Assembly (NCBI RefSeq): GCF_001444425.1
Contig: NZ_CP013189.1
Span: forward strand, 2,790,001 to 2,854,000
From: Pseudohongiella spirulinae
GTDB taxonomy: Bacteria > Pseudomonadota > Gammaproteobacteria > Pseudomonadales > Pseudohongiellaceae
Length of the DNA: 64,000 nt
Direction of reading: 5' to 3'
Each line of letters opens with the position of its first letter. The stretch's first letter is position 1. Shown here in pieces: positions 35,850 to 61,094 of the stretch. A program made the position numbers and the translations under genes. The notes beneath the pieces were generated by a model. That model saw nothing but the letters and a program-made list of their open reading frames with translations, searched no databases and had not been told where the DNA came from.

Positions 35850-36122
35850 TCAGGCAACATTACCTGGCGCTGACTCATCGTCATCTTGGTTGAAGTCGCC
35901 GCCCTGGGTCGGGATCTTTACCGTCCGGGCCGGAACGACTGTGGAAATCGCGTGCTTATAGACCATCTGGTTCACGGCATTTTTCAGCAGGATGACAAAC
36001 TGGTCGAATGACTCTATCTGGCCCTGCAGCTTGATACCGCTGACCAGATAGATTGATACAGGAATACGCTCCTTGCGAAGCACATTCAGGAAAGGGTCTT
36101 GTAAGGAATGCCCTTTTGACAT
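35850..36122 (-). CDS. hfq: RNA chaperone Hfq
   Basis: A 90-residue Sm-like hexameric chaperone for small RNAs. The Sm1 region (L-Q-D-P-F-L-N, S-G-I-K-L-Q-G, F-D-Q-F-V) and the Sm2 signature (Y-K-H-A-I-S-T) are intact. The tail after residue 70 is short and acidic. AAGGAG precedes the ATG. It lies between miaA and hflX as in most gammaproteobacteria, and is relevant to the candidate small RNA near oxyR in this window. Confidence 0.98.
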
Positions 36123-56745: not shown

Positions 56746-56783
56746 AAAAAAGCCCGGTCGCCTCAACAGCGACCGGGCTTTTT
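56746..56783. terminator. Bidirectional intrinsic terminator
   Basis: An 11-bp stem (56751-56761 with 56769-56779, seven-base loop) is flanked by AAAAA and TTTTT. It ends the IorAB-like genes on the plus strand and the redoxin/cytochrome gene on the minus strand. Confidence 0.93.
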
Positions 56784-58874: not shown

Positions 58875-59777
58875 TTAATCCGGACGATAATGTTGACGTA
58901 TGAAATCACCCAGCATAGTGAACTCTTTATGACGTGTACTGGCTTTTCGCCAGACCAGACCCACCTGACGATAACTGCCCGGGTCCAGCGGTTCGGTCTG
59001 GATGTGGGTATTTTTCAAAAGCGCAGAGTGCACAGCCATTTCCGGCAAGTAGGTAATGCCCAGATCAGCATCAACCATTTGCACCAGAGTCAACAGGCTG
59101 GTTGCCGTAATGTCACTGACTTTATCAGCATTCTTGATATTACAGGCCGACAGAGCATGGTCACGCAGACAATGCCCATCCTCCAGCAGTAAAACGCTGT
59201 CAGTCGGCAATTCACTCACATTGTAGTGGCTGGAACTCACAAACCGGCTCTTCTTGTGGTGAGCCAGAAAAAAATGATCGTCAAACAGAGGCATCTCCGT
59301 GACGTTACGCAACTCGTAAGGCAATGCAATCAATACCAGATCCAACTCACCTTCCATCAGCCGCTCATACACCCGCTCGGTCAGATCTTCTTTCAGATAG
59401 AGCTTCAGGTCTGGATAGGCTCTACGGAGAGCTGGTAATAATTTAGGCAGCAGAAAAGGCGCAATGGTCGGAATCACACCCATTTTCAGCTGCCCCGTCA
59501 ACGGGGCCTGATTGCCTTTGGCAAGATCAACCAGATCTTCCAGATCTCGCAGCACTACTCGCGCCTGCCGGGCAATATCGCGACCCAGGCTGGTAATGGT
59601 GACATTCTTGTTTGTCCTGTCAACCAACTGAATATTAAGCATATTCTCCAATTCTTTGATCGCTACACTGAAAGCCGGCTGAGATACAAAACAGGCTTCG
59701 GCGGCCTTGCCAAAATGCTCATATTGCTCCAGGGCAACAAAATAACGCAACTGCTTGGTAGTAGGTAAATGACTCAT
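58875..59777 (-). CDS. oxyR: Hydrogen-peroxide sensor OxyR
   Basis: A 300-residue LysR-type regulator. The helix-turn-helix (F-G-K-A-A-E-A-C-F-V-S-Q-P-A-F-S) is at the N-terminus. The peroxidatic and resolving cysteines are Cys203 and Cys212 in G-H-C-L-R-D-H-A-L-S-A-C, spaced exactly as Cys199/Cys208 of E. coli OxyR, so redox sensing is expected. Oxidised OxyR activates defence genes. An ATAG/CTAT half-site pair lies upstream (59810-59839). A divergent terminator-ended transcript is predicted beyond it. Confidence 0.95.
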   Translation of the reverse strand: MSHLPTTKQLRYFVALEQYEHFGKAAEACFVSQPAFSVAIKELENMLNIQLVDRTNKNVTITSLGRDIARQARVVLRDLEDLVDLAKGNQAPLTGQLKMGVIPTIAPFLLPKLLPALRRAYPDLKLYLKEDLTERVYERLMEGELDLVLIALPYELRNVTEMPLFDDHFFLAHHKKSRFVSSSHYNVSELPTDSVLLLEDGHCLRDHALSACNIKNADKVSDITATSLLTLVQMVDADLGITYLPEMAVHSALLKNTHIQTEPLDPGSYRQVGLVWRKASTRHKEFTMLGDFIRQHYRPD

Positions 59778-59809
59778 AGGAGACCCATCGACGATTCGTT
59801 TTCCATATC

Positions 59810-59839
59810 ATAGTAATACATTTAATTCATTTTATCTAT
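59810..59839. promoter_or_regulatory. Possible OxyR-type operator half-sites
   Basis: ATAG (59810-59813) and CTAT (59836-59839) are inverted half-sites separated by 22 bases in an AT-rich stretch between oxyR and the -10-like box at 59841. They have the right half-site sequence for LysR/OxyR, but the spacing is not the classic seven-base pattern. Confidence 0.3.
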
Positions 59840-59852
59840 TTACAATAAAAAA

Positions 59853-59977
59853 CTACCATGACGTCATCGAGTTTGAGTTTGCTGACGTACAAACCTCAGT
59901 AACTGAAGGAAGGTGTATTGAATTGACGATCCCTCTTGGCCGGAATGTAACCCCAAAAGTCATTCCGGCTTTTTTTT
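59853..59977 (+). ncRNA. Candidate small RNA divergent from oxyR (OxyS-like position)
   Basis: A -10-like TACAAT (59841-59846) predicts a start near 59853. A terminator (GCCGGAATG 59939-59947 with CATTCCGGC 59961-59969, followed by eight T) predicts an end near 59977, giving about 125 nt. An internal stem pairs ACGTCA with TGACGT. Only a 14-codon frame without a ribosome site lies inside, so it reads as non-coding. E. coli OxyS is 109 nt and has the same divergent position; sequence similarity was not assessed. Hfq is encoded in this window. Confidence 0.55.
59939..59977 (+). terminator. Intrinsic terminator on the plus strand
   Basis: A 9-bp perfect stem with a 13-base loop, then TTTTTTTT. 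There is no plus-strand protein gene before it, since oxyR is on the other strand, so it must end a short transcript that starts between 59778 and 59938. Confidence 0.85.
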
Positions 59978-60024
59978 GCCCTCTCTTAAGTTCTTGAGTC
60001 AAACGTTTTGATATACTCGCCTCT

Positions 60025-60426
60025 ATGACGAATCCAGCAGCTAAAATCCTGATCCTGTTCAGCCTGGCTATCGACGCCACACATTCATTGGGTGCTGAAC
60101 GCCCTGCAAGCGAGCATGTCTGGCATGGGGAGTGGCAGGCTGAAGGCATGCCATTCAGTTTGCGGGTCATTCCGGCTGGCGAACGCTTCACTGTCTTGCC
60201 ACTGGAGCCTGCTTCTATCGAGTGGCAGGCCAGCAATGGCGTCATCAACGGCAACACCGGGACAATTGATATTGAATACCAGGGCGTGACCGCAAAGGTG
60301 CTGGTGCAGTTGCAGGACACAGTCAGCGCGATTGTCCGCCCCATGTCCTGTCAGCCCGATTACCACGTGATCTGCACTTTGGTGCGCAATCAGCAGGCCC
60401 GTTTTATCAAGCGCATTCCGGATTAA
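60025..60426 (+). CDS. Small exported protein of unknown function
   Basis: A 133-residue protein with a signal peptide (I-L-I-L-F-S-L-A-I-D-A...; cleavage near A-E-R). Its mature part of about 110 residues has beta-strand-like segments and two cysteines near the C-terminus (M-S-C-Q-P-D-Y-H-V-I-C). It has no recognised domain. A long minus-strand frame (59853-60344) overlaps it. The plus frame is preferred because of the signal peptide and because the minus frame would run through the candidate small RNA. It is convergent with the ClpP gene (seven bases apart). Confidence 0.65.
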   Translation: MTNPAAKILILFSLAIDATHSLGAERPASEHVWHGEWQAEGMPFSLRVIPAGERFTVLPLEPASIEWQASNGVINGNTGTIDIEYQGVTAKVLVQLQDTVSAIVRPMSCQPDYHVICTLVRNQQARFIKRIPD

Positions 60427-60433
60427 ACCAAGC

Positions 60434-61027
60434 TTAACCGAGCTCCGCCATGGTACGGATACACTTGCCTACAATGCCATAGTCAATGGCCTCGTCAACC
60501 GTCATCCAATAATCACGATCAGTGTCCTTGGCAACGCGCTCGACCGGCTGACCGGTTTCCTCGGCAATCAGGCGATTAATACGGGCACGCATTTTCACGA
60601 TCTGCTCAGCCTGAATTTTGATGTCCGATGCACTGCCGCGTGATCCGCCGGAAGGCTGATGTACCAGAAACCGGGTATTCGGCAAGGCAAAGCGATGTTC
60701 TTTTTTGGCGGCCAGGTAGATGTTGGTAGCTGCGCTGGCCACCCAGCCGGTACCGACAACCCTGACCTCAGGCTCAATGAATTTGATGATGTCATAAACA
60801 ACATCTCCCGACTCTACATGTCCACCCGGAGAGCTGATATACAAAGTGATCGGCTCATTACTCTCGCCCGCCAGTGCCAGTAAGCGCTCAGTCACCTGTC
60901 TTGCCAGCCGATCATTAATTTCACCAAAGATTGTTACCGTACGGGTTTTGAACAGCTTCTCGTCCAGCAGACGACCACGGGGTGATTCCTGCTCTTCAGC
61001 AGACATTGTCGAACTTTCTTGCATCAT
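60434..61027 (-). CDS. ClpP-family serine protease
   Basis: A 197-residue ClpP homologue from the ATG at 61027 (GGAGAG five bases before). The triad is Ser98 in G-W-V-A-S-A-A (canonical G-Q-A-A-S changed to W-V), His123 in L-V-H-Q-P-S-G-G, and Asp172 in D-R-D-Y-W. No ATPase partner gene (clpX or clpA) is next to it, so it is likely an additional ClpP rather than the housekeeping one. It begins 67 bp after the RND gene. Confidence 0.9.
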   Translation of the reverse strand: MMQESSTMSAEEQESPRGRLLDEKLFKTRTVTIFGEINDRLARQVTERLLALAGESNEPITLYISSPGGHVESGDVVYDIIKFIEPEVRVVGTGWVASAATNIYLAAKKEHRFALPNTRFLVHQPSGGSRGSASDIKIQAEQIVKMRARINRLIAEETGQPVERVAKDTDRDYWMTVDEAIDYGIVGKCIRTMAELG

Positions 61028-61094
61028 CAATTCTCTCCAGAAACTCAAAATCGCAGCGTAATCTGACGTGCGTAAACCCAATCATAACATGGCT

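Follow-up and report, generated by a model that had tools for sequence, protein, structure and literature searches.

Does the intergenic region upstream of oxyR in Pseudohongiella spirulinae encode a small RNA, and is such an RNA related to OxyS, the textbook stress sRNA known from enterobacteria? The question arose from an original prediction, made for a 64-kb stretch of DNA (the window, i.e. the whole stretch that was analysed), that an OxyS-like small RNA is encoded divergently from oxyR.

The oxyR locus

The genome that contains the window is a single contig of 3,345,119 bases. The intergenic region in question (59778-60024) lies between oxyR on the minus strand and a plus-strand gene for a protein of 133 aa (Table 1). 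The best NCBIfam family of the window OxyR is OxyR NF008361 (E = 2.1e-72; 244 bits, short of the curated cut-off, 329), and its closest PDB structure is OxyR 7l4s (5.4e-70). A pair of cysteines nine residues apart (GHCLRDHALSAC) is found at the place expected for the redox pair. Both residues align with cysteines in structure 6g1b, and the first place is taken by S and D in 7l4s and 4x6g, respectively. The claim that Hfq is encoded in the window is correct.

At a threshold of E = 1e-60, the window genome has one OxyR. Three Pseudohongiella genomes have a second OxyR that is 43-46% identical to that of the window (G008:C5:178658-179560, G009:C1:743861-744763, and G012:C20:61362-62246). A ClpP-like protease gene (60434-61081, minus strand, NCBIfam PRK12553) is located beyond the 133-aa gene, and a ClpP-like gene recurs at this place in the genus-1 (Pseudohongiella) loci of sufficient length.

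Table 1 Features of the oxyR intergenic region and its surroundings (positions in the window)
Feature	Position	Strand	Basis or remark
hfq, possible partner protein	35916-36104	-	Pfam Hfq PF17209, 100.8 bits
oxyR, LysR-type peroxide sensor, 300 aa	58875-59777	-	NCBIfam and PDB matches
Conserved operator block, 49 bp	59791-59839	+	BLASTN and alignment; 59794-59830 fits the 37-bp OxyR consensus of E. coli best
-35-like TTTATC (putative)	59831-59836	+	read from the alignment; inside the operator end, spacer of 17 to the -10 box
TACAAT, non-conserved hexamer	59841-59846	+	TAnnnT at this offset in 1 of 29 regions (the window)
-10 box TACCAT, the conserved one	59854-59859	+	phased hexamer in oxyR regions
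Predicted small RNA, about 112 nt	59866-59977	+	start deduced from the -10 box, end in the T run
GGAAGG motif	59908-59913	+	16 of 26 units have it unchanged
C-rich motif ATCCCTCTTG, candidate seed	59929-59938	+	just 5' of the terminator; kept in units
Rho-independent terminator, 9-bp stem and T8	59939-59977	+	strict scan; covariation in 7 of 9 pairs
Next gene, 133 aa	60025-60426	+	no Pfam or NCBIfam match; own TTGAGT/TATACT promoter-like site 3' of the terminator

A rare terminator without a preceding gene

The original prediction started from a plus-strand terminator with a 9-bp stem and eight T, and from the absence of a plus-strand gene before it. Both observations were correct; oxyR adjoins on the left on the minus strand. 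The arms of the stem, GCCGGAATG (59939-59947) and CATTCCGGC (59961-59969), form nine perfect pairs around a loop of 13 nt and are followed by the T8 run (59970-59977). Such sites are rare in the window. A strict scan of the 64 kb, which required a perfect stem of 8 or more containing no fewer than 5 G/C, a loop of at most 16, and at least 7 T in 8, retrieved this site and one other (56752-56778, minus strand), and the same scan found no site in 30 Markov-simulated windows. The hairpin is absent from another terminator scan because that scan permits only loops of 3-8. The fold of the whole predicted RNA is not unusually stable (z = -1.47; 17 of 200 shuffles were equally stable).

Conservation across oxyR regions

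The region 59770-60000 (231 bp) was compared with 56 related genomes by BLASTN. Matches were obtained in 16 genomes: 14 of 15 from genus 1, a count that includes the window genome, and two others of the family; the Pseudohongiella relatives include P. nitratireducens SCS-49, Pseudohongiella sp. O18, and others. Conservation is concentrated in two separate blocks, the operator and the 3' end with the terminator, and the 3' block was detected in 6 of the 15 relatives matched.

An OxyR with at least 77% identity is encoded in 29 of 137 genomes of the family, namely in 14 of genus 1, 14 of genus 5, and one of genus 7 (the match in G067 covers residues 89-298 only). The operator is present in all 29 orthologous regions, a phased -10 hexamer in 26, the C-rich motif together with the terminator in 26, and both in 25. 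The -10 hexamer is missing in L053, the terminator in L060, and both in L070 and L071, showing that the unit is dispensable. L070 and L071, from two genus-5 genomes, have kept the operator upstream of oxyR and lack the -10 hexamer, the RNA, and the terminator, so that the operator could serve oxyR alone. In the genus-5 genome of L107 (and L051), the single-frame match of oxyR begins no earlier than residue 89 or 90, and the gene may therefore be interrupted or misassembled.

A lack of hairpin conservation among relatives had been named as grounds for refuting the prediction. The stem is kept, and two-sided changes were found in 7 of its 9 pairs when 22 of the 26 tails were used (near-duplicates of L057, L062, L066, and L077 were left out). 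For the same 22 tails, the number of cells with two-sided changes was 37, whereas shuffles gave 11.6 and slid controls 1-12. The fraction of stem cells that pair was 89.9%, a value reached by none of 500 shuffles, in which the relatedness of the sequences is not fully controlled, and slid versions of the stem had values of 27-46%. The weakest measure, the occurrence of further pair types, was reached by 14 of 500 shuffles. RNAalifold with all 26 rows returned the terminator stem alone, with compensatory changes in 6 of its 8 pairs. The comparison of related sequences demonstrates that the terminator is under selection.

Operator and promoter

The ATAG and CTAT half-sites that had been noted between TACAAT and oxyR are present. 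All regions were scored against the E. coli OxyR consensus, which we take to be ATAGNTNNNANCTAT twice, 7 bp apart. In 25 of the 29 regions, the best 37-mer match lies at one common offset and agrees at 12-16 of 20 positions. At this offset the window agrees at 13 of 20 positions, as it does at a place 9 bp further on. This is a weak match, as it was attained by 16 of 200 shuffles, and scores of 13 or higher occur at 11 places on the plus strand of the 64 kb. Shuffles reached the observed score 0-10 times out of 200 in 26 of the 29 regions; the weak matches are those of L065, L072, the window, and L056, which were equalled by 32, 26, 16, and 10 of 200 shuffles, respectively. A PWM derived from the 28 other regions gave a score of 66.5 at the window operator, and the next non-overlapping site in the window scored -15.5. 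Thus, it is the relatives, and not the window sequence alone, that make the operator convincing.

Two katG loci and two loci of the AhpC type were also scored with the operator PWM. Their values ranged from -2.6 to -7.5, similar to the hfq locus (-5.7). At both katG loci, the best place is no more than about 110 nt 5' of the start; it is inside the gene at one AhpC locus, and the start is unclear at the other. The peroxidase genes score no better than hfq and thus lend the operator reading no support, so that its assignment to OxyR relies on location, agreement with the consensus, and conservation. The window genome encodes two KatG-type peroxidases (G000:C1:1308399-1310258 and G000:C1:3301077-3302936).

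The hexamer TACAAT, which had been proposed as the -10 box, is indeed present, but it is not conserved. The conserved -10 box is TACCAT. Counted from the place of TACAAT, at the operator end, the -10 hexamer (TAnnnT; CAGACT in L059) has an offset of 13 nt in 18 of the 29 regions and of 14 nt in 8. With the position of TACCAT, the length of the predicted RNA is corrected from about 125 nt to about 112 nt. A terminated non-coding transcription unit that is divergent from oxyR and has an OxyR-type operator over its putative -35 box is well supported by these comparisons, and the predicted small RNA is probably under OxyR control.

The unit and the downstream gene

A terminated unit in front of a gene could also be the OxyR-driven 5' leader of that gene (60025-60426), the hairpin being an attenuator with regulated read-through. 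Downstream of the terminator, 25 of the 26 units have a plus-strand frame of 80 codons or more, located within 200 nt in 23 (starts were taken as the first ATG or GTG, and one tail was too short to judge), as expected for a leader. Likewise, transcription would continue toward the downstream frame in L060, which is from the same genome as L014 and has no terminator. However, the hairpin is a strong terminator, and the core as folded by RNAalifold contains only the terminator stem and no alternative structure. Furthermore, a TATACT is found at most 170 nt after the unit, between unit and gene, in 13 of 14 genus-1 regions and in the genus-7 region. None of the 14 genus-5 regions has this site, which would fit a leader, but in genus 5 the frame that comes first after the unit resembles, by eye, a different membrane protein. 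We consider it rather unlikely that the unit is a leader.

Motifs of the predicted RNA and searches for targets

In 25 of the 26 units, the terminator is preceded by CCCT and then C or T (ACCTC in L059). GGAAGG may pair weakly with this C-rich motif, as suggested by an internal pairing test with CCCUU (p = 0.03 for 20 distinct pairs, uncorrected for relatedness). Small RNAs with a C-rich seed pair with Shine-Dalgarno regions, and the predicted RNA is similar to them in the C-rich motif kept just before its terminator. The features of the general class of Hfq-dependent trans-acting sRNAs, i.e. a terminator with a U tail, the lack of a reading frame, and hfq in the genome, are all present.

The complement of the candidate seed, AAGAGGGA, with an ATG 2-13 nt later, was found 77 times in 15 genomes, compared with 74 times for the reversed pattern. 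A target upstream of an RND adaptor gene was rejected: the site is present in G000, G008, and G009, and another ribosome-binding site is present in five other species, G003, G005, G007, G011, and G013 (9 of 12 loci were compared, and the start was misplaced in G009 and G014). OxyS pairs with targets such as nusG near the start codon. Here, the duplex with nusG, calculated for the 20-nt seed stretch only, was no better than those of mononucleotide shuffles in 10 species (p = 0.25-0.95); in G012 the stretch fell in the terminator rather than in the seed.

The negative results of these three target searches would agree with a different explanation, namely that operator and terminator serve the autoregulation and insulation of oxyR, and that the plus-strand transcript is a functionless by-product that is ended early. 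The presence of the operator without the unit in L070 and L071 points in the same direction. Nevertheless, the C-rich motif is conserved beyond the needs of insulation, and this explanation seems clearly unlikely to us. A small-peptide gene with GGAAGG as its Shine-Dalgarno motif was rejected as highly improbable: GGAAGG is similar to a ribosome-binding site and has an ATG 2 nt after it in L062, L063, and L064, but no common reading frame was seen across the units (by inspection, the units differ in frames, starts, and stops), no start codon follows GGAAGG consistently, the frame from the ATG in L064 ends at a stop after two codons, and the exact GGAAGG is missing in 10 of the 26 units.

Taken as a whole, the locus is best explained by an OxyR-activated sRNA of about 112 nt that is divergent from oxyR, most likely acts in trans, and is an analogue of OxyS; we regard this reading as quite likely. 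Oxidised OxyR would bind to the operator block, overlapping a weak -35 box, and would recruit RNA polymerase to the TACCAT -10 box. The same operator probably sets the level of oxyR itself, too. Transcription would begin at about 59866 and, judging from the sequence and covariation of the terminator, would stop at the T run. The RNA most likely acts in trans via the CCCUC/CCCUU motif 5' of the terminator, which would pair with G-rich ribosome-binding regions with the help of Hfq. The translation of certain mRNAs would thereby be lowered during peroxide stress.

Distribution of the unit

A covariance model (R1) was built from the 26 unit sequences, which it refinds by construction. Searched against the 137 genomes of the family, it had strong matches (E ≤ 8.2e-8) in 26, one per genome, and no second strong copy was found in any of the 137. 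Weak matches alone (E up to 0.1) were obtained in 20 more family genomes, and the best values in the 108 family genomes without an orthologous OxyR were 1.6e-4 and 3.5e-4. A search of 390 genomes of the order gave, among the matches listed, strong ones in six genomes, all Pseudohongiella; no genome of genus 5 or genus 7 is among these listed matches. Eight others had values between 4.8e-5 and 9.9e-4. These weak matches were not accepted as relatives; the two of the eight that were inspected, L159 and L160, have no OxyR nearby. Where searched, strong matches are confined to Pseudohongiella and two sister genera.

The same OxyR clade is also found outside the family, with proteins that are 56-64% identical (Thiothrix, Leucothrix, and others). 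R1 had no match in 29 outside-family loci that carry this clade. In 8 of the 28 outside-family regions examined, a peroxiredoxin-like (four) or a glutathione-reductase-like (four) frame faces oxyR, one of each having been checked against NCBIfam. In the remaining regions, other genes or none face oxyR.

Relation to OxyS and other small RNAs

According to a published study, homologues of OxyS exist in 10 enterobacterial genera, in all cases upstream of oxyR (PMC5793797). The Pseudohongiella unit resembles OxyS (RF00035; the model has 110 positions) in its place in the intergenic region 5' of oxyR, the divergent orientation, the similar length, and the Rho-independent terminator. Also shared are an OxyR-type site at the promoter, here predicted by sequence, and hfq in the genome. 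The features of OxyS used in this comparison are described in part in PMC5793797. In contrast, the conserved motifs of the Pseudohongiella unit are different ones. An Rfam cmscan of the whole window at the gathering threshold gave no OxyS match, and a scan of 59700-60100 with E values up to 10 retrieved only a chance match to a snoRNA. The RF00035 model had no match in the window genome, whereas the E. coli control matched. Homology to OxyS was rejected because no covariance-model match was found in the window, in 59700-60100, or in the genome itself. Thus, the designation "OxyS-like" holds for the divergent position and, judged by sequence, for the apparent control, but does not extend to a match with the OxyS model. 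RF00035 also had no match in 369 genomes of the class, a draw that evidently held few or no enterics; as OxyS occurs in enterics, this value is no measure of its range.

SgrS-SgrR, GcvB-GcvA, and OxyS-OxyR are named together as divergent sRNAs adjacent to their regulators in a published article (PMC4423775). The Pseudohongiella unit is similar to SgrS-SgrR and GcvB-GcvA in that the sRNA gene is divergent from, and adjacent to, the gene of its own regulator, a control that is predicted here, but the signal and the regulator are different; the sequences were compared by Rfam scans only.

The lack of an Rfam match and the absence of the unit from the outside-family loci of the same OxyR clade give it the appearance of a separate sRNA family in the OxyS position. 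We conclude that it is probably such a family, controlled by OxyR, and that it would be an analogue of OxyS by place and apparent logic rather than a recognisable homologue. There may be an even chance that an OxyR-controlled sRNA arose independently of OxyS, at the same place, in a gammaproteobacterial lineage outside the enterics, and that this pairing evolved at least twice; the RNA may have replaced a protein gene, for a peroxiredoxin or a glutathione reductase, such as faces oxyR of this clade in some relatives. A second RNA, unrelated in sequence and wired to OxyR at the same position, would suggest that the combination of a peroxide sensor and a divergent sRNA is a favoured design. A published report of an oxyR-adjacent sRNA in Pseudohongiella was not found in a search that had most of the subscription literature outside its scope. 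The predicted sRNA gene lends itself to simple tests in any strain that can be cultured.

The sole Rfam match at the gathering threshold in the window was a cobalamin riboswitch at 1180-1436 on the plus strand.
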